Of a stretch of 64,000 nucleotides of DNA, positions 14,106-61,180 are shown piece after piece. Every line of letters begins with the position of its first letter. The stretch's first letter is position 1. Where the stretch lies: positions 6,185,001 through 6,249,000 of the forward strand of contig NZ_CP060201.1 of assembly GCF_013407925.2 (NCBI RefSeq). Direction: 5' to 3'. The position numbers were made by a program, and so were the translations under genes. Under the pieces are notes generated by a model. It saw only the letters and a list, made by a program, of their open reading frames with translations. It was not told where the DNA came from and ran no database searches. This stretch comes from Pseudomonas protegens (GTDB taxonomy: Bacteria; Pseudomonadota; Gammaproteobacteria; Pseudomonadales; Pseudomonadaceae).

Positions 14106-15182
14106 ATGGCAGATATCTTCGAAAACCCGATGGGCCTGATGGGCTTTGAATTCATCGAATTCGCATCGCCCACCCCCAACACCCTCGAACCGATCTTCGA
14201 GATCATGGGTTTCACCAAAGTCGCGACCCATCGTTCAAAAGACGTGCATCTGTATCGCCAGGGTGCGATCAACCTGATCCTCAACAACGAACCCCACAGC
14301 GTCGCCTCGTACTTCGCCGCCGAACACGGTCCGTCGGTGTGCGGCATGGCGTTCCGGGTCAAGGATTCGCAGAAGGCCTACAAGCGCGCCCTGGAACTGG
14401 GCGCCCAGCCGATTCACATTGAAACCGGCCCGATGGAACTCAACCTGCCGGCGATCAAGGGCATCGGTGGCGCGCCGCTGTACCTGATCGACCGTTTCGG
14501 CGAAGGCAGCTCGATCTACGACATCGACTTCGTGTTCCTCGAAGGCGTGGACCGCAACCCACAGGGCGCCGGCCTGAAGATCATCGACCACCTGACCCAC
14601 AACGTGTACCGCGGGCGCATGGCCTACTGGGCCGGTTTCTACGAGAAGCTGTTCAACTTCCGCGAGATCCGCTACTTCGACATCAAGGGCGAATACACCG
14701 GCCTGACCTCCAAGGCCATGACCGCCCCGGACGGCATGATCCGCATCCCGCTGAACGAAGAATCGTCCAAGGGCGCCGGGCAGATCGAAGAGTTCCTGAT
14801 GCAGTTCAACGGCGAGGGCATCCAGCACGTGGCCTTCCTCACCGACGACCTGGTCAAGACCTGGGACGCGCTGAAGAAGATCGGCATGCGCTTCATGACC
14901 GCGCCGCCGGACACCTACTACGAAATGCTCGAAGGCCGCCTGCCGAACCACGGCGAGCCGGTCAAGGAGCTGCAAGCCCGGGGCATCCTGCTGGACGGTT
15001 CCTCGGAGGCCGGCGACAAGCGCCTGCTGCTGCAGATCTTCTCGGAAACCCTGATGGGCCCGGTGTTCTTCGAATTCATCCAGCGCAAAGGTGACGACGG
15101 ATTCGGTGAAGGCAACTTCAAGGCACTGTTCGAATCGATCGAACGCGACCAGGTGCGTCGCGGTGTACTGGCCACCGAGTAA
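14106..15182 (+). CDS. hpd: 4-hydroxyphenylpyruvate dioxygenase
   Basis: Non-haem Fe(II) enzyme converting 4-hydroxyphenylpyruvate to homogentisate in tyrosine catabolism and for pyomelanin formation. The 358-residue length matches Pseudomonas HPPD. The iron ligands are His162 (IDHLTHNV), His241 (IQHVAF) and Glu323 (FFEFIQ). The N-terminal non-catalytic VOC domain spans about 1-150 and the catalytic one about 155-340. A 13-bp inverted repeat TAACG/CGTTA (14066-14078) lies 28 bases before the start. A strong terminator follows, then hpaR. Confidence 0.97.
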
Positions 15183-15205
15183 CCCTCGGCAGGCTTGACC
15201 CCAGA

Positions 15206-15242
15206 GCCCGATCAGGCCCCGCCTGATCGGGCTTTGTTTTGC
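15206..15242 (+). terminator. Rho-independent terminator after hpd
   Basis: A 13-bp stem AGCCCGATCAGGC / GCCTGATCGGGCT (15206-15218 with 15222-15234), followed by TTGTTTTG. Confidence 0.88.
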
Positions 15243-15259
15243 CTGTCGGCTGGCGATAG

Positions 15260-15276
15260 TGAATGTGTTAATGTTC
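15260..15276 (+). promoter_or_regulatory. Candidate HpaR operator in front of hpaR
   Basis: GTGAATGTGTTAATGTT lies 36-52 bases before the hpaR start codon. It matches the site at 32454-32470 in the hpa operon promoter at 14 of 17 positions. MarR-type HpaR proteins bind AT-rich palindromes and repress themselves, so autoregulation is inferred. Confidence 0.6.
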
Positions 15277-15311: not shown

Positions 15312-15734
15312 ATGAACACACCCAGACCTTCCCTGACCCTGACCCTGCTGCAGGCCCGTGAGGCCGCCATGGCGTTTTTCCGCCCCTCGCTGAACCAGCA
15401 CGACTTGACCGAGCAGCAGTGGCGGGTGATCCGCATCCTGCGCCAGAACGGCGAGCTGGAGAGCCACCAGCTGGCGAAGATGGCCTGCATCCTGCCGCCG
15501 AGCATGACCGGGGTACTGACCCGCCTGGAGCGCGACCAGTACGTCAGCCGGCGCAAATCCCCGGAAGACCAGCGCCGCCTGTTCATCACCCTGACCGACA
15601 AGGGCCAGGCCTGTTTCGAATCCATGAGCGGCGACATGGAAATCAACTACCAGAAAATCCAGCAGCAATTTGGTGAAGACAAGATGCAGGCCTTGCTGGC
15701 CCTGCTCAATGAACTCAAGCAAATCAAGCCCTGA
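15312..15734 (+). CDS. hpaR: MarR-family repressor of homoprotocatechuate catabolism
   Basis: Encodes 140 residues, MNTPRPSLTLTLLQAREAAMAFFRP, with the winged-helix region LTEQQWRVIRILRQNGELESHQLAKMACILPPSMTGVLTRLERDQYVSRRKSPEDQRR. The LLQAREAAMxxFRP start and ILPPSMTGVLxRLERD are hallmark HpaR/HpcR sequence. HpaR represses the meta-cleavage operon until homoprotocatechuate or 4-hydroxyphenylacetate binds. Unusually it is not in the hpa cluster but 9 kb away beside hpd. A matching operator-like 17-mer precedes both this gene and the hpa operon. The ATG at 15312 is the first in frame after that operator. Convergent with rarD. Confidence 0.88.
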   Translation: MNTPRPSLTLTLLQAREAAMAFFRPSLNQHDLTEQQWRVIRILRQNGELESHQLAKMACILPPSMTGVLTRLERDQYVSRRKSPEDQRRLFITLTDKGQACFESMSGDMEINYQKIQQQFGEDKMQALLALLNELKQIKP

Positions 15735-21792: not shown

Positions 21793-22923
21793 ATGTTCGA
21801 ACTCGATCATGACCTGGCGCAGGACATCGTCGACCGCGCGATGGCCATCCTGCCCTACAACGTCAACGTCATGGACAGCCAGGGCCTGATCCTCGGCAGT
21901 GGCGAGCCGGAGCGCATCAACACCCGGCATGAAGGCGCGCAACTGGTGCTGGCCAACGGCCGGGTGGTGGAGATCGACGAGCCCACCGCGCAGCGGCTCA
22001 AGGGCGTGCAACCGGGGATCAACCTGCCGCTGCTGCACGACCAGCGGCTGATCGGCGTGCTGGGCATCACCGGTGATCCGGCCTTGCTGCGCACCTACGC
22101 CGAACTGGTGCGCATGACCGCCGAGATGCTGGTGGGCCAGCGTCATCAGCAGGCCGAGCAGCAATGGCGGCGCCAGCGTTGCGACGATCTGCTGGCCTTG
22201 CTCCTGAGCGACGACGGCGACTCCCCGCGCCTGGTGGACGAAGCCCGACAGATGGGCCTCAAGCCGCAGCTGGCGCGCACGCCTTACCTGTTCGAACTGG
22301 CCCTGGAACAGGCCGCGGGGCAGGGCGTCGAGACCCTCAGTGCCTGGCTGATGAGCCGTTACCCGGACAGCTGGTGCGTCAGTTCGTCAAAGACTTCCCT
22401 GCTCTGGTGTCGCCCGGCGACCCTCAACCTGGACAACCCGCGCCTGCTGGAAAAACTCGACGGCCAGGGCTGGAACATCCTGCGGGTCGCCGTGGGCGGA
22501 CAGGCCGAGGGGCTGGCCGGCTTGCGCCGCTGCTATCGCCGGGTCAGCGACCTGCTGGCCTACGGGCGTGATCTGCTGCCGGACGCGCGGCTGCTGACCC
22601 TCAACCGCTACCGCCTGCCGGTGATGCTCTGGCGTCACCGCAACGACGACGCCCTGGACGAATTGCTCAGCCCCTTGCGCAAGGTGCTGGCCAAGGACAG
22701 CAACGGCCAGCTGCTGGCAACCCTGCGCAGCTGGTGCGACCACGATGGCCAGAGCCAGGCCTGCGCCGATGCCCTGGGCATCCACCGCAACAGCCTGCGC
22801 TACCGCATGGAGCGCATCGCCGAACTCAGCGGCGTCGCCCCCCTGCGCCTGGACGGCATGCTGGCCCTGTACCTGGGGGTGCAATTGCTGCCCCGCAACA
22901 CCACTCAACCCAATCCCCTGTAG
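21793..22923 (+). CDS. cdaR: Sugar-diacid/glycerate utilisation regulator, CdaR family
   Basis: Encodes 376 residues. The N-terminal sugar-diacid recognition domain covers about 1-135 (ELDHDLAQDIVDRAMAILPYNVNVMDSQGLILGSG), and the C-terminal PucR-type helix-turn-helix is SQACADALGIHRNSLRYRMERIAELSG. CdaR activates glucarate, galactarate and glycerate genes; here its targets are probably the divergent MFS gene and the glycerate kinase downstream. The ATG at 21793 follows AAGGA by about ten bases; an ATG at 21772 lacks a ribosome site. Its TAG stop codon is the first full triplet of a 138-bp intergenic repeat (TGTAGCCGC), so the repeat defines the protein's end. Confidence 0.88.
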   Translation: MFELDHDLAQDIVDRAMAILPYNVNVMDSQGLILGSGEPERINTRHEGAQLVLANGRVVEIDEPTAQRLKGVQPGINLPLLHDQRLIGVLGITGDPALLRTYAELVRMTAEMLVGQRHQQAEQQWRRQRCDDLLALLLSDDGDSPRLVDEARQMGLKPQLARTPYLFELALEQAAGQGVETLSAWLMSRYPDSWCVSSSKTSLLWCRPATLNLDNPRLLEKLDGQGWNILRVAVGGQAEGLAGLRRCYRRVSDLLAYGRDLLPDARLLTLNRYRLPVMLWRHRNDDALDELLSPLRKVLAKDSNGQLLATLRSWCDHDGQSQACADALGIHRNSLRYRMERIAELSGVAPLRLDGMLALYLGVQLLPRNTTQPNPL

Positions 22924-23056
22924 CCGCTGCCGAGCTTCAGCGAGGCTGCGCAAAGGCCCGCAGGGCCTTGCTTGGCAATCCCCAGCCAAACCTGTATCGC
23001 CTTCAAGACCTTCACGAGCGCTACGCGCCCGTTCGCAGCCTGCGGCAGCGGCTACA
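22919..23056 (+). repeat. 138-bp intergenic repeat, copy 1
   Basis: Starts TGTAGCCGCTGCCG and ends with CGGCAGCGGCTACA, its exact reverse complement, giving 14-bp terminal inverted repeats. Inside, AAGGCCC-GCA-GGGCCTT forms another hairpin. It overlaps the cdaR stop codon. Nearly identical to copy 2, 162 bases on, and related at the ends to 60599-60730. No coding capacity; looks like a small non-autonomous MITE. Confidence 0.85.
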
Positions 23057-23080
23057 GGGTCCAGGAGGATTTAACGGTTC

Positions 23081-23218
23081 TGTAGCCGCTGCCGAGCTTC
23101 AGCGAGGCTGCGCAAAGGCCCGCAGGGCCTTGCTTGGCAATCCCCAGCCAAACCTGTATCGCTTTCAAGACCTTCACGAGCGCTACGCGCCCGTTCGCCG
23201 CCTGCGGCAGCGGTTTCA
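23081..23218 (+). repeat. 138-bp intergenic repeat, copy 2
   Basis: A direct copy of the preceding repeat after a 24-base spacer. It differs mainly by C-to-T in the CGCCTTCAAG segment, A-to-C in GTTCGCAGCC, and a decayed right end (GGTTTCA instead of GGCTACA). Confidence 0.85.
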
Positions 23219-24950: not shown

Positions 24951-25751
24951 TCAGTAAACCCCTCCGTCGCGGGTGGGGGCGTCCAGGGTCTTGTACTGCC
25001 CGACCAGGCTCTGCAAGCCCTTCATCAATACCGTGGTATCCACTCCCACGGCCACGAAGTTCGCCCCCAGCTCGATGCAACGCCGGGCCAGGCGCTGATC
25101 GGCGCTGAGAATCCCCGCCGCCTTGCCCGCTCGACGTATGCGCACGATGGCGTCTTCAATCGCCGCCACCACCTCGGGGTGCCCGGGGTTGCCCCGCTGG
25201 CCCATGGCCGCGGACAGGTCCGCCGGGCCGATGAACACGCCATCGACGCCGTCCACCGCGAGGATTTCATCCAGGTTGCGCAGGCCTTCGAGGTTCTCGA
25301 TCTGCACCAGCAGGCACATCTGTTCATCGGCCCGGTCCAGGTAGTCGGCGATGCTGTTCCAGCGCGACGCCCGGGCCAGGGCGCTGCCCACGCCACGCAC
25401 TCCCTGCGGCGGATAGTGCATGGCGCGCACCAGTTGGCGCGCCTGCTCGGCGCTTTCCACCATGGGAATCAGCAGGGTCTGGGCGCCAATGTCCAGCAGT
25501 TGCTTGATCAGCGCGGTATCGCCGATCGGTGGGCGGATGATGCCCTGGGCGGCGTAGGGGGCGATGGCCTGCAACTGCGCCAGCAGGCTGCGCAGGTCGT
25601 TGGGGGCGTGTTCGCCGTCCAGCAGCAGCCAGTCGAAACCGGCGTTGGCCGCCAGCTCGGCGCAGTAGCCGTCCGCCAGCCCCAGCCACAGGCCGATCTG
25701 CGGTTCGCTGTGCTGCAGGCGTTGTTTGAACAGGTTCAGTGGCATGTCCAT
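24951..25751 (-). CDS. hpaI: 4-hydroxy-2-oxoheptane-1,7-dioate aldolase
   Basis: Last step of the homoprotocatechuate meta pathway: splits 4-hydroxy-2-oxoheptanedioate into pyruvate and succinate semialdehyde. A 266-residue class II HpcH/HpaI aldolase: [24 protein letters not shown], metal-binding region [26 protein letters not shown] and [12 protein letters not shown]. The start at 25751 has GGAG about seven bases upstream; a second ATG two codons later is possible. It is the final gene of the operon, ten bases after hpaH. No clear terminator; the modular repeat begins about 35 bases downstream. Confidence 0.93.
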
Positions 25752-25761
25752 GGCTGTCTCC

Positions 25762-26565
25762 TCAGACAAAGCGGCAGGCGATGCTGCCCAACTGATCGTA
25801 GTCGACGTGGAAGACATCCCCGGGACGGGCCGCCACCGGGCGAGTGAAGGAGCCGCCGAGAATGATCTGCCCGGCCTCCAGGCCGACGTCGTAGGCCGCC
25901 AGCTTGTTGGCCAGCCAGGCCACGCCCTTGGCCGGATGATTGAGCACCGCGGCGGACACCCCGGATTCCTCGATCACGCCATTGCGGTAGAGCACCGCCG
26001 GCACCTTGCGCAGGTCCACATCGCCAGGGCGCACGGCGCGGCCGCCCATGACCACCCCGGCGTTGGCGGCGTTGTCGGAAATGGTGTCGAACACCTTGCG
26101 CGTGGCCTGGGTCTGCGGGTCCAGCTGCTGGATGCGCGCGTCGATGATTTCCAGCGCCGGGATCACCCAGTCGGTGGCGTCCAGCACATCGAACAGGGTG
26201 CAGTGGGGGCCTTTCAAGGGTTTGCCGAGGATGAACGCCAGCTCCACCTCGACCCGCGGCACGATAAAGCGCTGGAAGGGAATGTCCGTGCCTTCATCGA
26301 ACAGCATGTCGTCCAGCAGGGCGCCGAAATCCGGCTCGGTGATGTTCGACGACACCTGCATCGCCCGCGACGTCAGGCCGATCTTGTGGCCCACCAGCTT
26401 GCGCCCGTCGCGGATCTTCTGCTCCACCCAACGGCGCTGGATGGCGTAGGCGTCTTCGATGCTGATGTCGGGGTATTGCAGGGACAGCTGGCCGATCTGT
26501 TCGCGGCTGCGTTCGGCGGCGTTGAGGCGCGCGGCGGCTTCTTGGATATCCGAGGGGCTGAGCAT
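25762..26565 (-). CDS. hpaH: 2-oxo-hept-4-ene-1,7-dioate hydratase
   Basis: Adds water to 2-oxohept-4-ene-1,7-dioate to give the substrate of HpaI. The 267-residue protein belongs to the MhpD/HpcG hydratase family (FAH-related fold): [62 protein letters not shown] with metal-binding Glu residues, [12 protein letters not shown], and VMGGRAV. Separated from the upstream MFS gene by two bases and from hpaI by ten, so co-transcribed. The Pseudomonas name hpcG is also in use. Confidence 0.93.
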
Positions 26566-26567
26566 GG

Positions 26568-27875
26568 TTATTTCTCCCGAGGGTTGACGATATGGGCCGG
26601 CACCCGCAGCACCAGCCAGGCGCCCAGGGCGATCAGCAGGGCCAGGGCATAGAGGGCGAGGCTGGCGCTTTGCGTGGCGTCGCGCACCACGCCGATCAGG
26701 TAAGGGGCAAGGAAGGCGGCCACACTGCCGAAGGAACTGATCAGGGCAATGCCCGCGGCCTGGGTGCTGCTGGCCAGAAAGGCCGGCGGCAATTGCCAGA
26801 ACATCGGCAGCGCGGCGCTGGCGCCCATGCCCGCCACCAGCAGGCCGAACATCACCAGCCACGGATCGCCCGGGGCCAGTCCGGTGAGGATCAGGCCGAG
26901 GCTGGACATCAGCAGCGGTATCGCCAAATGCCAGCGGCGTTCGCGCAGGCGGTCCGAGGAACGGCCAACGCCGAGCATGAACAGGCAGCCGGCCAGATAG
27001 GGCAGGGCGCTGAGCAGGCCGACATTGCTGTCCCGGGCGATGCCGGCGTGGTGGATCAGGGTCGGCATCCAGAAGGCGATGGTGTTCACCGCCAGCATCA
27101 CCGCGAAGTAGATGCACACCAGCAGCCAGACATGGCGCTCCTTGAGGATGCCGCTGAAGCGGGTGATGGATTTGCGCTGTTCTTCCTGGTGCAGCGCCTG
27201 CAGCAGCCGGGTTTTCTGCGCCGGGGTCAGCCAATCCACCTGTTCGATGCTTTCCGGCAGGGCCTTGAGCACCACCAGCCCCAGCAGTACCACGGGCAAG
27301 CCTTCGATCAGGAACATCCACTGCCAGCCGCGCAGGCCGCCGATGTCGTGGAAGCTTTCCAGGATCCACCCCGACAGCGGCCCGCCAATCACCCCGGCCA
27401 TGGGCACGGCAATGGCGAACAGCGCGGTCACCTGACCGCGGCGGCTGGCCGGGAACCAGCGGTTGAGCAGTACCAGGATGCCGGGGAAGAACCCCGCCTC
27501 GGCGACCCCCAGCAGAAAGCGCAGCACGTAGAAGCCCCAGGCGCTGTCCACCAGCATCAGGGCACTGGACAGCAGGCCCCAGACCAGCATCAGCAAGGCG
27601 ATCCAGCGCCGTGGGCCGACCCGTTCCAGGGCCAGGTTGCTGGGCACCCCGAACAGCGCATAGGCGACGAAGAACAGCCCGGCGCCGAGGCCGTAGACGC
27701 TGTCGCTGAAGCCCAGGTCCTGGGTCATCTGCAACTTGGCGAAGCCGATATTGATCCGGTCCAGGTGGGCGAAGATGTAGCAGACGAACAACAGCGGCAT
27801 CAGCCGCCAGGTGATCTTGCGATAGCAGTCGTTGACCTCGGCCACAGGAGCCTCGGCGATTGCGGGATGGGACAT
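26568..27875 (-). CDS. hpaX: 4-hydroxyphenylacetate transporter (MFS)
   Basis: A 435-residue, 12-TM permease of the anion:cation symporter family with [18 protein letters not shown] near residue 35 and [17 protein letters not shown] near the centre. Operon position between hpaF and hpaH supports HpaX, which brings 4-hydroxyphenylacetate or homoprotocatechuate into the cell. A long intergenic stretch with REP elements (27899-28021) separates it from hpaF, so its translation may be tuned separately. It is a homologue of the MFS protein encoded at 20327-21637, as both share DR(V/I)N(V/I)GFAKLQM. Confidence 0.88.
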
Positions 27876-28562: not shown

Positions 28563-29414
28563 CTAGAAGATGGCGTTGATCTGCCCGGTGCCGGAGCTGC
28601 CGAACAGCGGCGTGATGATCTCCGCCGGGCGGTTGTACTCAGGTCCACCCAACAGTCCCAGGAGCATCGCCGTGTCGTGCATGCCGCCCTCGCCGTGACA
28701 GCTGGTGGCGTAGTCCGGGAGCATGGCGCAGAACTCGCGATAGCGACCTTGCTGCCACAGCTCCACCACCCGCTGGTCCACCTGCTTGTCGAACTCCCGG
28801 GTCCAGTTGTGGATGTTGGCTTCGGCTTCGCGGTCGTTGGAGAACCGGTGGGACAGCGAGCCGGACGCCAGCACCAGGACCTTGCGCTCGCTCTTTTCGA
28901 TGGCCCGGCGCACCGCGGCGCCGAAGGTGAAGCTGTCTTCCAGCTTGTGCCAGGCGCACCAGGCGGCGATCGACACCACCTTGAAGTGCTCGGCGGCGGG
29001 CACGTCCATGTGCATGTAGCGCATGGGCACCAGGGTCCCGTACTCCAGCTCCAGGCTGGGGATATTGTGGGCCAGGGTGCGCACGTCGGCGGCGTTGGCC
29101 TCGGCGGCGATCAGTTCCCCCAGCTCCGGGCAGCCCTGGTAGTCGTAGGTCATGTTCTTGATGAAGTGCGGCAGCTCGTTGCTGGTGTAGGTGCCGTTGA
29201 AGGCTTCACCACAGTTGATGTGGTAGCCGCTGTTGACCAGCCAGTGCACATCGAACACCACCGCGGTGTCGGCTCCCAGCGCCCGGGCGCGGCGGGCGAT
29301 TTCCTTGTGCCCGGCAATGGCCGCCTCGCGGCAGCCGTGGTGCTTGCCCGGCAGTTCGGACAGGTACATCGATGGAACGTGGCAGACCTTGGCGGCCATG
29401 ACGACTTCGCCCAT
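28563..29414 (-). CDS. hpaD: 3,4-dihydroxyphenylacetate 2,3-dioxygenase (homoprotocatechuate dioxygenase)
   Basis: Extradiol ring-cleaving enzyme that opens homoprotocatechuate to 5-carboxymethyl-2-hydroxymuconate semialdehyde. The 283-residue sequence belongs to the LigB (type III extradiol) family: HVPSMYLSELPGKHHGCREAA, FDVHWLVNSGYHINCGEAF with probable Fe ligands, and GSLSHRFSND. The start at 29414 reads MGEVVMAAKVCHVPS; an internal Met at position 6 is an alternative. It follows hpaE by 54 bases. Not the type I (VOC) HpcB-like enzyme found in some other genera. Confidence 0.93.
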   Translation of the reverse strand: MGEVVMAAKVCHVPSMYLSELPGKHHGCREAAIAGHKEIARRARALGADTAVVFDVHWLVNSGYHINCGEAFNGTYTSNELPHFIKNMTYDYQGCPELGELIAAEANAADVRTLAHNIPSLELEYGTLVPMRYMHMDVPAAEHFKVVSIAAWCAWHKLEDSFTFGAAVRRAIEKSERKVLVLASGSLSHRFSNDREAEANIHNWTREFDKQVDQRVVELWQQGRYREFCAMLPDYATSCHGEGGMHDTAMLLGLLGGPEYNRPAEIITPLFGSSGTGQINAIF

Positions 29415-29468: not shown

Positions 29469-30929
<1,461 letters not shown>

Positions 30930-31730
30930 TTATGCGTGCTCCTTGGCCGCAGCGGCGGGTTCTGGTTGGGCGTAGTGGGCGAAGAATTCGCGTTCGCTGA
31001 CGATGCGGTTGACCAGCCGGCCGACGCCTTCGATTTCCACCACCACCTCATCGCCGGGCACTACATCGCTGAGGCCTTCGGGGGTGCCGGTGGCGATCAT
31101 GTCCCCCGGTTGCAGGGTCATGAAGCCGGACAGGTATTCGATCAGGTAGGGGATGTCGAAGATCATCTCGGCGGTGCTGCCTTGCTGGCGCAGCTCGCCG
31201 TTGACCCAGGTGCGCAGGGTCAGCTTGTTGGGTTCCGGCACCTCGGCCGCGTCGATGATCCACGGGCCCACCGGGGTGGTGGCGTCGCGGTTCTTCACCC
31301 GCAGGTTGGGCCGGTAGTAGTTCTCCAGGTAATCGCGGATCGCGTAGTCGTTGCACAGGGTGTAGCCGGCCAGGTAGTCCAGGGCGTCCTCGCGCTTGAC
31401 GTTGCGCGCGGTCTTGCCGATCACCGCCACCAGCTCGCACTCGTAGTGCATGTAGGCGACGTTGTCCGGGCGCCAGGTCACCTGCTTGTGCCCGGTGTAG
31501 GTGCCCGGCGACTTGATGAACACCATGGGCTCGGTGGGCGGCGTGAAGGCCAGCTCGGCGGCGTGGTCGGCGTAGTTCAGGCCCAGGGCGAACATGGTCC
31601 CGGTGGCCGGGGGCAGCCACTGCACCTGGTCTTCGGCGAGAACCCGGCCGTCTTCCAGTTGCAGGGTGTTGGGACCGGTGACCAGGGCCTGGTGGACCTG
31701 ACCCTGATAACGAATGCGTGCATGTTTCAT
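30930..31730 (-). CDS. hpaG2: 2-hydroxyhepta-2,4-diene-1,7-dioate isomerase / decarboxylase subunit
   Basis: FAH-fold protein acting after HpaF: with HpaG1 it decarboxylates 5-oxopent-3-ene-1,2,5-tricarboxylate and isomerises the product. In E. coli the two halves are fused in one HpaG/HpcE chain; here they are separate genes. The 266-residue protein has FALGLNYADHAAE, VFIKSPGT, and the metal site MHYECELVAVIGK plus GPWIIDA and TGTPEGLSDVVPGDEV. It follows hpaG1 by nine bases. Confidence 0.9.
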   Translation of the reverse strand: MKHARIRYQGQVHQALVTGPNTLQLEDGRVLAEDQVQWLPPATGTMFALGLNYADHAAELAFTPPTEPMVFIKSPGTYTGHKQVTWRPDNVAYMHYECELVAVIGKTARNVKREDALDYLAGYTLCNDYAIRDYLENYYRPNLRVKNRDATTPVGPWIIDAAEVPEPNKLTLRTWVNGELRQQGSTAEMIFDIPYLIEYLSGFMTLQPGDMIATGTPEGLSDVVPGDEVVVEIEGVGRLVNRIVSEREFFAHYAQPEPAAAAKEHA

Positions 31731-31739
31731 GTCGGTTCC

Positions 31740-32399
31740 TTATTCGGCAACGATGCTGTTGGCCAGACGGCCCAGGCCGCTGATCTGCACTTCGACCCGG
31801 TCGCCGGGGCGCACATCGACCCGGCCTTCGGGAGTGCCGGTGATCAGCACGTCGCCGGGGTGCAGGGTCATGAACTCGCTGATTTCGGCAATCAGCTGGG
31901 GAATGCTGCGCACCAGGTTGGCGGTGCTGTTGTGCTGCACCCGTTCGCCGTTGACGAACAGCTCCAGGCTCAGGTCGTGGGGATCGCTCACCTCGGCCGC
32001 CGGCACCAGTTGCGGGCCGATGGCGCAGAAGCCGTCGCGGCACTTGGCCTTGACCGCGGGGCGGTAGTAGCTGTCTTCCGGCAGGCTGAACTCGTTGACG
32101 ATGGTGTAGCCGGCCACATGCTCCAGGGCGTTTTCCAGGCTCACCCGGCTGGCACGCTTGCCGATCACCACCCCCAGGGCCGGGCCCGGTTGCAGGCGTT
32201 GGACGTCCTTGGGAAATACCACCGGCGCTTCATGGGAATTGCGGGTGTTGGGGGTCTTGATGAACAGCACCGGTTTCACCGGCGGCTTCTGGTAGGGCGG
32301 CTGGGTGAAGCTTTGCAGATGGCTCTGCAGCAACCCCTGGTAGTTCAGCGCAACGCCGAACAGGGTGCCGCCGGCGTGATCGTTCAGTGCACGGCTCAT
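31740..32399 (-). CDS. hpaG1: Homoprotocatechuate-pathway decarboxylase/isomerase subunit, first gene of hpa operon
   Basis: A 219-residue FAH-fold protein, the shorter partner of HpaG2: GVALNYQGLLQSH, VLFIKTPNTRNSH, GPQLVPAAEVSDP, ITGTPEGRVDVRPGDRVEVQI. The position that is YECEL in HpaG2 reads PGPALGVVIGK here, so the usual acidic metal ligands are not obvious and this subunit may depend on HpaG2. It is the first gene after the divergent promoter that carries two HpaR-like sites. MSRALNDHAGG is the start; no longer frame exists. Confidence 0.88.
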   Translation of the reverse strand: MSRALNDHAGGTLFGVALNYQGLLQSHLQSFTQPPYQKPPVKPVLFIKTPNTRNSHEAPVVFPKDVQRLQPGPALGVVIGKRASRVSLENALEHVAGYTIVNEFSLPEDSYYRPAVKAKCRDGFCAIGPQLVPAAEVSDPHDLSLELFVNGERVQHNSTANLVRSIPQLIAEISEFMTLHPGDVLITGTPEGRVDVRPGDRVEVQISGLGRLANSIVAE

Positions 32400-32453
32400 C
32401 GGGCTCTCCTGGTGTTGGTTCCCGTGGCGGCTTGCCGCTGGCGGGTCGAGTTC

Positions 32454-32490
32454 GTTAATGTATTAACGTTATATTTAATATGTTAACGAT
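32454..32490. promoter_or_regulatory. Two tandem candidate HpaR operators in the hpaG1/hpaA spacer
   Basis: Site 1 is GTTAATGTATTAACGTT at 32454-32470 and lies within the perfect palindrome CGTTAATGTATTAACG (32453-32468). Site 2, TTTAATATGTTAACGAT at 32474-32490, matches site 1 at 13 of 17 positions and starts exactly 20 bases later, two helical turns, so both face the same side of the DNA. They are 55-91 bases upstream of hpaG1. The site in front of hpaR matches 14 of 17. Confidence 0.65.
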
Positions 32491-32598
32491 CGTCAAGCGC
32501 CAGCCTGATCGATTGCCTCGTGCCCTGGCGGGCACGCCGCGAATCGCGCAGGATGCCAACGCTCTGCGTGCTGAAAAAATAAAAAACAGAAGGGTGCC

Positions 32599-33531
32599 AT
32601 GAACCCACGTCAACCCATTCCCAATATCAACATCGGCCAGGTCTACGATCAGCGCTACGCCGATGCCCAGGTGCACTACGACAAGCTGAGCAATCTCGCC
32701 GGCTTCTTCGGCCGCAACATGCCGGTGCATCGCCACGACCGCTTCTTTCAGGTGCATTACGTGCAAAGCGGCGCGGTGCGGGTTTATCTGGACGACCAGC
32801 AGTACCTGGAGTCGGGGCCGATGTTCTTCCTGACTCCGCCGACCATTCCCCACGCCTTCGTCACCGAGGCCGACAGCGAGGGCCACGTGCTCACCGTGCG
32901 CCAGCAACTGGTGTGGGAACTGATCGGCGCCGACCCGGCCCTGGCGCCGGCGCCGCTGGTGCCACCGGCCTGCGTGGCCCTGGCGCGGCTGGGGCCGCAG
33001 TTCGCCGGCGAGGTACGGCGCCTGGAGTGCCTGTTCCAGGAGTTGCAGGAGGAAATCGCCGGACAGGACGCGGGACGCGAGCCGGCCCTGGAAGCCCTGA
33101 CCCGGCTGTTGATGATCAGCCTGCTCAGGCTGTCGGCCAATTCCCTCAAGGCCCGTCCGGCACGGCATGAAGACTTGCAGATCTTCCACCGCTTCAACGA
33201 ACTGATCGAGGCCCGCTACCTGGAGCACTGGCCCCTGGCGCGCTACGCCAGCACCCTGGGGGTCACCGAAGCGCGGCTCAACGACGTCTGCCGACGCATC
33301 GCCGACCTGCCGTCCAAGCGCCTGGTGTATGAACGCCTGATGCAGGAATCCAAGCGTTTGCTGCTGTTCACTGCCAGTTCGGTGAATGAAATCTGCTACC
33401 AGCTGGGCTTCAAGGACCCGGCCTATTTCAGCCGGTTTTTCCAGCGTTACGCCAAGACCGCGCCGGGGGAATACCGGGCGCGCCAGGGACAGATCAACCC
33501 GCCTGTGGCCGAGGCGCCCAAGCGCCCCTGA
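32599..33531 (+). CDS. hpaA: AraC-family activator of 4-hydroxyphenylacetate catabolism
   Basis: Encodes 310 residues. The N-terminal cupin-like ligand domain (PVHRHDRFFQVHYVQSGAVRVYLDDQQYLESGPMFFLTPPTIPHAF) binds the inducer. The C-terminal AraC DNA-binding region includes LARYASTLGVTEARLNDVCRRI and SVNEICYQLGFKDPAYFSRFFQRYAKTAPGEYR. This is the HpaA/PobR-like type that activates the hydroxylase genes hpaBC in E. coli. It is divergent from the meta-cleavage operon. Here hpaB/hpaC are 13 kb away, so its real target needs testing. Confidence 0.85.
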   Translation: MNPRQPIPNINIGQVYDQRYADAQVHYDKLSNLAGFFGRNMPVHRHDRFFQVHYVQSGAVRVYLDDQQYLESGPMFFLTPPTIPHAFVTEADSEGHVLTVRQQLVWELIGADPALAPAPLVPPACVALARLGPQFAGEVRRLECLFQELQEEIAGQDAGREPALEALTRLLMISLLRLSANSLKARPARHEDLQIFHRFNELIEARYLEHWPLARYASTLGVTEARLNDVCRRIADLPSKRLVYERLMQESKRLLLFTASSVNEICYQLGFKDPAYFSRFFQRYAKTAPGEYRARQGQINPPVAEAPKRP

Positions 33532-39491: not shown

Positions 39492-39798
39492 GGTTGACCT
39501 CGATTGTTGTTATAGGGGGCGTCATGGGGATGACTGAGGCGACTTTAGGCCCACGGGCAAGGGCCGGTTTGATCGAATCGGACCGGTTTGTTGTCTGTTT
39601 CGGACGGGGACTTTTCCCCGCGCAAACAGCGATGGGATGAGCTCGTTCCGGCGAACGGCTGTCACTGCGTTTCAAGTTGACAGCGCATATAGTTCAGATG
39701 TTAATGAATGGCCGCGAGCCGCAGATCATGCGGTCCCAGGTGCCCGGACGCGGCCTTGCCGTCCGGGGAATATCCCGCCGCCCATGAGAAGAACAACA
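39492..39798. other. Divergent promoter region, cupin operon / AraC
   Basis: A 307-base gap. It contains the promoters of the five-gene operon and of the AraC-type regulator. A GATCGAATCGGACCGGTTT segment (39571-39589) and its GTTTCGGAC partial echo a few bases later are the only notable repeats. The sequence is rather poor in clear -10/-35 boxes. Confidence 0.4.
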
Positions 39799-43877: not shown

Positions 43878-44750
43878 TCAGAACACGTGGACCAGGCGCA
43901 GCAGGGCGTCGGTGCCGGCAAAACCGTTCTCGGTGGCGACGTTCTGCGACAGGCTGAACAGCAGCTGGTTCTGCTTGTCCAGCCAGTGCCCGAGCTCGAA
44001 GCCGACCTGGGTGTAGCGCTTGTGGGTGTCGTCGATGCGCCGGTCGTTGATCCGCAGTTCGCCGCCATCGGCGTGGATCAGGCGCAGGGCGCCGTAGGTC
44101 GAGGGGGTGAAGTCGTAGGAGGCGAAGGCCTGCAGGCGATAGAGCGGGTCCTGCTTCAGGTCGCTGCCGAAATAGTCGTCGTTGCTGCCATAGAGCTGGG
44201 CTTCGAGGTTGGCCTCCAGCACCCATTTCTGCCCCAGGCCCTGGGTGTAGTTGTAGACAAAGGTCGTGCCCCAGCGGTTGGCCCCGGGGGACACGTCCGG
44301 GTTGCGCCCGTGGTACTCGCCCAGCGGCAGCGTGACCAGGGTCAGCAGGCCGCTGTAGGTGCGGGTTTCTGGCTGGTTGATGAAGAACAGCGTGCCGCCC
44401 ACCTGGGGGTCGCCGAAGCCGCTTTCGCCGCTGCGGCGCTCGGCGCCGGGCAAGCGGGCGCTGATGTCGGCGAAGGGCACGATGAACTGCGGGGTGCACA
44501 GGGTGCCGCACAGGTCGCTGAAGAACACCTGGCGGTAGGCCATGGCGTTGATCCGCAGATCGGCTTTGCCGCTGCTGTCGGCCGGGCCGTGGAAATCGCC
44601 GGCACGGGTGGCAGGCAGGTACAGCACACCGAGGCTGGTGCCCGCGGGGGCGGCGAAGAAGTCGCGGGCGTTGAGGTCCGCGGCGTTGAGCGACAGGCTG
44701 GCCAGGCAGCCAGCCAGGGCCAGGGCGGTACGGGTCGGAATCCTTGTCAT
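43878..44750 (-). CDS. Outer-membrane protein, MetA-pathway-of-phenol-degradation type
   Basis: A 290-residue beta-barrel protein. Signal peptide MTRIPTRTALALAGCLASLSLNAADLNA; then FFAAPAGTSLGVLYLP, GFGDPQVGGTLFFIN, TLVTLPLGEYHGRNPDVSPGANRW, and a final strand ending in VHVF with the terminal Phe needed for outer-membrane assembly. This matches the family found in phenol and other aromatic clusters, thought to admit hydrophobic substrates. It is the first gene of the group, 136 bases behind the LuxR-type regulator. Confidence 0.85.
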   Translation of the reverse strand: MTRIPTRTALALAGCLASLSLNAADLNARDFFAAPAGTSLGVLYLPATRAGDFHGPADSSGKADLRINAMAYRQVFFSDLCGTLCTPQFIVPFADISARLPGAERRSGESGFGDPQVGGTLFFINQPETRTYSGLLTLVTLPLGEYHGRNPDVSPGANRWGTTFVYNYTQGLGQKWVLEANLEAQLYGSNDDYFGSDLKQDPLYRLQAFASYDFTPSTYGALRLIHADGGELRINDRRIDDTHKRYTQVGFELGHWLDKQNQLLFSLSQNVATENGFAGTDALLRLVHVF

Positions 44751-60751: not shown

Positions 60752-61180
60752 ACAGGTCGGCCGGCAGGCCGCCGTCAGATTTTGCTTTTGCTTTTGCTTT
60801 TGCTTTTGCTTTTGCTTTTGATCTTGCTTTTGATCTTCCTGCCCCTTTAGACACGATGGCCGAACGCAGGCATTGAGCCGTGGGTAACCCGGCAGGGATG
60901 CCGGGTTAGCCGCACTGGGCCATGGATGGCCCATTGCGGCGGCCCACGGATCAATGCCGGAGTTCGGGCATGCCGAGCCTAGGCGAGGCACCGAGTGGAG
61001 GGGCAGAAGCGTTTTGCTTACTTTTGCGCTTTTCAAAAGTGAGCCGCTGTAAGAGCGGAACCCTAAGTGGCCGTGACCGCAGCAACGGATATGTACCCCG
61101 TCAAACTCGCTGCAAGAGCGAAACCCAAAGTAGCCGCACCCGCAGCAACGGATATGTCCCCATCAACCCCGCAACAACAG
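60752..61180 (-). repeat. Modular intergenic repeat, copy C, inverted
   Basis: The reverse complement of the copy A/B type: starts with GCCGCCGTCAGATTTTG, contains the (TTTTGC)6 tract (60780-60815), then AAGGGGCAGGAAGATCAA on the minus strand, the AACCCGGC hairpin, GGAGGGGCA, two GTACATATCC/GGACATATCC boxes and the GGGTTTCGCTCTTGCAG box. Copies B and C therefore face each other around 60740. Confidence 0.75.
60780..60815 (+). repeat. Hexanucleotide microsatellite (TTTTGC)6
   Basis: Six perfect TTTTGC units from 60780 to 60815, followed by imperfect TTTTGATC units. Equivalent to the shorter (GATCAA)n/(GATCTT)n tails in the other copies. Such tracts often change length by slippage. Confidence 0.85.

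Follow-up and report, generated by a model that had tools for sequence, protein, structure and literature searches.

Putative HpaR operators in the predicted hpaG1 core promoter of Pseudomonas protegens and a probable third site before a distant hpaR gene

INTRODUCTION

Does a MarR-family repressor gene that stands beside hpd act on a meta-cleavage operon for 4-hydroxyphenylacetate (4-HPA) breakdown 17 kb away, and can its likely targets be fixed from DNA alone? The question is raised by hpaR of Pseudomonas protegens, which we analysed in a 64,000-bp window (positions 6185001-6249000 of the 6.82-Mb genome), assigning gene families with NCBIfam models.

The HpaR operator-repressor system itself is known. 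As given in the excerpted text of PMC7180172, two HpaR sites of the form TTAA-XXXX-TTAA were footprinted at hpaG1 of Yersinia pseudotuberculosis, one centred at -8 and one placed at -189, an arrangement similar to that of E. coli W. It is also in print, in the same excerpt citing Arcos 2010, that in P. putida U HpaR and a second copy, HpaY, repress the meta operon. Excerpts of two further papers describe HpaR of A. baumannii, which is said to act at the element preceding hpaA and the meta operon (PMC12718150), and NadR of Neisseria meningitidis, an HpaR homologue whose DNA binding is weakened by 4-HPA (PMC2791445). For HpaR operators in Pseudomonas, no paper was found among the titles and abstract openings searched, though they may already have been described. 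The main text of a P. aeruginosa ChIP-seq study (PMC13086498) makes no mention of HpaR, PA4135 or hpaA.

RESULTS

Two inverted repeats in the gap between hpaG1 and hpaA

The features of the window that bear on the question are collected in Table 1. The MFS gene at 26568 scored below the cut-off of the HpaX model (298 versus 615). The hpaBC genes are also in the window, HpaB being recognised by PF03241 at approximately 46.8-48.3 kb and HpaC judged by eye. Two repeat arrays were recorded in the window, a 162-bp unit in 1.8 copies at 98% identity (22918-23213) and a TTTTGC hexamer array of 8.8 copies (60780-60832).

Table 1. Coordinates of genes and of predicted regulatory elements in the window.
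Feature	Position	Strand	Remarks
hpd, 4-hydroxyphenylpyruvate dioxygenase	14106..15182	+	TIGR01263, 420 bits
Intrinsic terminator-like stem, hpd-hpaR gap	15202..15236	+	
Probable HpaR operator before hpaR, GTGAATGTGTTAAT	15259..15272	+	13/14 columns invariant in 11 loci
hpaR, MarR-family repressor	15312..15734	+	TIGR02337, 190 bits (cut-off 121.2); PDB relatives 2fbi, 7el2, 5aip
hpaI	24951..25817	-	TIGR02311, 417 bits
hpaD	28563..29414	-	TIGR02298, 450 bits
hpaE	29469..30929	-	TIGR02299, 737 bits
hpaG2	30930..31730	-	TIGR02303, 416 bits
hpaG1, first gene of meta-cleavage operon	31740..32399	-	TIGR02305, 301 bits
HpaR operator 1 (putative), GTTAATGTATTAAC	32454..32467	-	TTAA-TGTA-TTAA core on + strand; centre at predicted hpaG1 +1
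hpaG1 -10 (predicted), TATAAC	32468..32473	-	In gap between operators; TATAAC in 84/92 distinct exact-tandem promoters
HpaR operator 2 (putative), TTTAATATGTTAAC	32474..32487	-	TTAA-TATG-TTAA core on + strand; inside -35/-10 spacer
hpaG1 -35 (predicted), TTGACG	32491..32496	-	TTG-type hexamer exactly 17 bp from -10 in 90/92 distinct exact-tandem promoters
hpaA, AraC-family regulator, divergent from hpaG1	32599..33531	+	TIGR02297, 431 bits

The 199-bp gap between hpaG1 and hpaA (32400-32598) contains two 14-bp inverted repeats, both with exact TTAA-N4-TTAA cores of the type footprinted in Yersinia. The original prediction had described this pair as two 17-mers, GTTAATGTATTAACGTT at 32454 and TTTAATATGTTAACGAT at 32474, and these do agree at 13 of 17 positions with an offset of 20 bp. 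It had further placed site 1 in a perfect palindrome, CGTTAATGTATTAACG (32453-32468); the 7-bp arms, CGTTAAT and ATTAACG, are perfect, while the central GT is non-palindromic. The spacing had been read as exactly two helical turns. At 10.5 bp per turn, 20 bp is about 1.9 turns, and this reading was dropped in favour of promoter geometry.

The putative operators bracket a predicted -10 element

Read toward hpaG1, the sequence is TTGACG-ATCGTTAACATATTAAA-TATAAC-GTTAATACATTAAC, with 17 bp between the predicted -35 and -10 hexamers. In this predicted layout operator 2 lies within the spacer and the -10 hexamer in the 8-bp gap between the operators, and transcription would start near 32461, at the centre of operator 1. 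This promoter geometry is a better explanation of the 20-bp offset than a count of helical turns. An alternative promoter, TTAACA-18-TACATT, is picked by the scan tool because it requires the terminal T of the -10; the -10 of this alternative falls in operator 1 and differs among species.

We compared 100 distinct hpaG1 upstream regions from 123 loci. The exact tandem was present in 92 of them, with an offset of 20 bp in 66 cases and of 21 bp in 26, and a -10-like hexamer lay within the operator gap in all 92, counts drawn from a biased set since 30 of the input loci (L081-L110) had been fetched for matching tandems; the fair count is therefore that of the genus survey below. In 24 of the 26 tandems at 21 bp the extra base follows TATAAC, so the -35/-10 spacing is unchanged. 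In each of the remaining eight regions a single exact site lay no more than 330 bp upstream of hpaG1.

Two further observations concern the surrounding DNA. The 48-bp promoter block of hpaG1 recurs at 93% identity on plasmid CP109682.1 (408458-408502), labelled Pseudomonas aeruginosa, with a shorter match on a P. frederiksbergensis plasmid. Upstream of the -35, a block CATCCTGCGNGATTCGC (window 32539-32555, minus strand) is kept with 0-2 mismatches in all 11 close relatives and shows at least 4 mismatches, the same as shuffles, in the remaining 83 regions out of 94 distinct ones; it was looked for before hpaBC and not found there. This block is a possible activator (HpaA) site.

The tandem accompanies hpaG1 and hpaR across the genus

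The survey covered 398 genomes of the genus, with an exact tandem defined as a pair of TTAA-N4-TTAA sites with a gap of N7-9 and HpaR called at E ≤ 1e-30. Exact tandems were found in 118 genomes, HpaG1 in 124 and HpaR in 126. The tandem occurred in 116 of the 124 hpaG1 genomes versus 2 of the 274 without hpaG1. HpaG1 and the tandem coincided in 116 genomes, HpaG1 and HpaR in 122, and HpaR and the tandem in 115 (Fisher P = 8e-88, 5e-95 and 1e-82, respectively, values that ignore the relatedness of the genomes). The pattern is conserved where hpaR and hpaG1 are both present, which is the point on which the original prediction had staked itself.

The exceptions are few. In seven of the eight hpaG1 genomes that have no exact tandem, the two sites persist at the 20-bp offset and one of them carries a single core mismatch; in one of these seven, G168 (L236), the tandem is present and neither a -35 nor the usual -10 can be recognised. 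G423 (L240) is the sole hpaG1 genome of the 124 without operators, exact or near. It is also one of the two hpaG1 genomes in which HpaR is missing at the threshold, the other being G076, which has a 91% fragment where a contig ends. The closest HpaR-like protein in G423 is only 40% identical (E 1e-28) and is encoded approximately 5 kb from its hpaG1. The tandems in G077 and G081, which have no HpaG1, are of a different sequence, with no TATAA in their spacers, and look like chance occurrences.

Four genomes had HpaR without HpaG1 (G030, G282, G331 and G369), where other targets are possible. G071, G051 and G344 each had two hpaG1 genes and two tandems, G051 being listed with 9% contamination; G071 had three HpaR copies, one of them hpd-linked, and G344 had four.

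To place the motif among the hpa genes, we counted exact motif copies in the 120 bp upstream of gene matches in 78 named loci, taking matches of ≥50% identity for which this length of upstream DNA was available, with gene starts extrapolated from tblastn. The motif preceded hpaG1 in 48 of 49 cases and hpaA, which shares the gap, in 38 of 50. It preceded hpaR in 28 of 70 cases where this gene was not behind hpaA and in 4 of 22 where it was. For hpaD the count was 1 of 57, and no motif was found before any of 53 hpaE, 33 hpaF, 54 hpaG2, 61 hpaI, 37 hpaX or 1 hpd, giving 1 of 296 for these seven genes pooled. Upstream of hpaBC in the window, the motif was found neither exactly nor with one core mismatch.

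TTAA-N4-TTAA sites also lie before ORFs judged by eye to resemble TRAP binding proteins, OprD-like porins and MFS transporters in relatives L179, L190, L213, L189, L210, L187 and L178, which suggests a wider HpaR regulon in these relatives.

A probable operator before hpaR

The third copy, before hpaR, matches site 1 at 14 of 17 positions as claimed, although it starts at 15259 and not at 15260. Its core is TGAA-N4-TTAA, with one mismatch. Given the terminator-like stem that separates the two genes, hpaR probably needs a promoter of its own; one was looked for in the hpd-hpaR gap and none was recognised.

Linkage to hpd was checked in 52 HpaR loci and in the 78 named loci. In 11 of the 52, the source genome included, hpaR lies behind hpd; other Pseudomonas loci place it behind hpaA, close to hpaI, or at a distance from every gene included in the search. 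All 11 hpd-linked loci retain the site, and their upstream stretches all differ. A twelfth hpd-linked locus, in Pseudomonas sp. NFIX28 (L155), has the site too, its upstream stretch repeating one of the 11. In a gene tree built on few columns, the nine distinct hpd-linked HpaRs form one clade (100/99), and the paralogue from which they arose was not resolved. At E ≤ 1e-30 a second HpaR is missing from 10 of the 11 hpd-linked genomes; the exception, G071, carries two more.

How far such sites arise by chance was considered on three scales. In the window, the 17-mer consensus with up to 3 mismatches had 4 matches (the three sites, site 1 counted on both strands) versus 0.02 expected, a partly circular comparison in that the consensus came from the same sites. 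Weaker matches, with one core mismatch each, lie at 39692 and 5852. Dinucleotide shuffling of the hpaG1-hpaA gap, repeated 20,000 times, produced one site in 55 cases and two in none. In the 6.8-Mb genome TTAA-N4-TTAA occurs at 12 places, two of which are the hpaG1 pair, and a backward control pattern is more frequent still, at 18 places, which makes a lone site of this kind meaningless. Among the other genomic places, the exact site at 3270628 lies within a 649-aa ORF, those at 44178 and 554256 lie outside ORFs of more than 100 aa and with no recognised hpa gene, and an identical core at 556334 falls shortly after the start of an ORF judged by eye to be surface-polysaccharide-biosynthesis-like; these were set aside.

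These counts bear on the reading that the hpaG1 pair is the sole real HpaR target, the site before hpaR being fortuitous or degenerate and hpaR not autoregulated. The core mismatch fits this reading, as does the standing of the site genome-wide, where it is among many places at 2 mismatches to GTTAATNTNTTAAC, and so does the lack of an exact site within 120 bp of 42 of the 70 hpaR genes not behind hpaA. Against it, 13 of 14 operator columns are invariant in the 11 aligned hpd-hpaR gaps versus 53 of the 146 remaining columns (a set that takes in the terminator and the end of hpd), despite a varying distance from site to ATG, and only 11 of 20,000 dinucleotide shuffles of this gap gave a site as good as the real one. 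We regard this reading as unlikely.

Other readings of the tandem

AraC proteins often bind two 17-bp repeats approximately 21 bp apart, and the sites of AraC-type activators are generally direct repeats upstream of or touching the -35. The 17-mers might on this basis be half-sites for the activator HpaA: the spacing fits, hpaA starts 111 bp away, and in many relatives it adjoins hpaG1. Yet the pair does not fit this pattern: each site is an inverted repeat, in the predicted spacer or on the predicted +1. An activator bound there, downstream of the -35, would stand in the way of polymerase. The motif also precedes 28 of the 70 hpaR genes that are not behind hpaA, and in Yersinia, reported in the excerpted text to be without HpaA, it is footprinted by HpaR (PMC7180172). 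Half-sites for HpaA would seem very improbable. That the palindromes are nothing but AT-rich promoter DNA bound by no specific repressor can hardly be entertained: the pair does form an AT-rich island within a GC-rich gap, but the 48-bp block is near-invariant in 11 genomes, the exact arm pattern occurs in 116 hpaG1 genomes while the backward pattern occurs in no row of the survey, and the tandem is lost in the one hpaG1 genome (G423) with only a diverged HpaR-like protein.

DISCUSSION

The link proposed between the remote MarR gene and the meta-cleavage operon holds up, through the HpaR model match, the published operator core and the co-occurrence of motif, HpaR and hpaG1 in the 398 genomes. 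Together these support, at the level of sequence, repression of hpaG1 by HpaR, and perhaps of hpaR itself. We consider it very likely that the tandem sites are HpaR operators placed in the predicted hpaG1 core promoter so as to block polymerase, with probable release by a ligand and, perhaps, a third site through which hpaR limits itself. In uninduced cells, operator 2 would be occupied by an HpaR dimer that covers the -35/-10 spacer and operator 1 by another that covers the start point, and RNA polymerase could therefore not use the promoter. HpaR would be released from the DNA by 4-HPA or an intermediate of the pathway, by analogy with published work on E. coli, Acinetobacter and NadR. At the third site, HpaR may limit its own gene, located beside hpd behind the terminator. 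Evidence for autoregulation is patchy across relatives, as the upstream counts for hpaR above indicate.

The comparison with known systems is instructive. Yersinia and E. coli W share the repressor family and the TTAA-N4-TTAA core, and the Yersinia pair likewise lies upstream of hpaG1 with one site near the start point; in Yersinia, however, the sites are at -8 and -189, whereas the Pseudomonas pair is 20 bp apart and flanks the predicted -10, and hpaR is 17 kb off beside hpd (PMC7180172, excerpted text). Erwinia sp. S63 is Yersinia-like, its sites standing at -22 and -196 relative to the start of hpaG1. An operator centred approximately 180 bp further upstream, as in the enterobacterial hpaG pair, is absent from the P. 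protegens promoter. P. putida U, as described in excerpt, belongs to the same genus and has HpaR acting on the meta operon, and the two-HpaR clusters of many relatives fit its layout, whereas P. protegens has one HpaR, beside hpd rather than in the cluster. In Acinetobacter sp. MB5 (L224), too, hpaG1 is preceded by two sites with a 20-bp offset. It is the only one of four Acinetobacter loci to include hpaG1, and it is AT-rich, with 7 motifs in 20 kb; all four loci share this AT-richness and hold between 1 and 10 motifs apiece, so this evidence is weaker. NadR, in the excerpted account, similarly has several operators per promoter, one over the -10 and start point, but its target is an adhesin gene with a distant operator for which looping has been proposed (PMC2791445).

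More tentatively, Pseudomonas might possess an HpaR switch of fixed architecture, with operators in the spacer and on the start, the -10 in a gap of 8-9 bp, and a dimer on either side of the -10, the two binding cooperatively. The hpaR gene of one clade would have moved beside hpd, where its level might also follow tyrosine breakdown. The fixed tandem layout and the position of hpaR beside hpd may be details not previously described.

For P. protegens, DNA sequence alone fixes the targets on which a remote MarR gene is likely to act. For the genus, exact tandems in 118 of 398 sampled genomes, approximately 30%, present a testable operator-promoter design, which could be of use for 4-HPA biosensors and for the annotation of HpaR targets.
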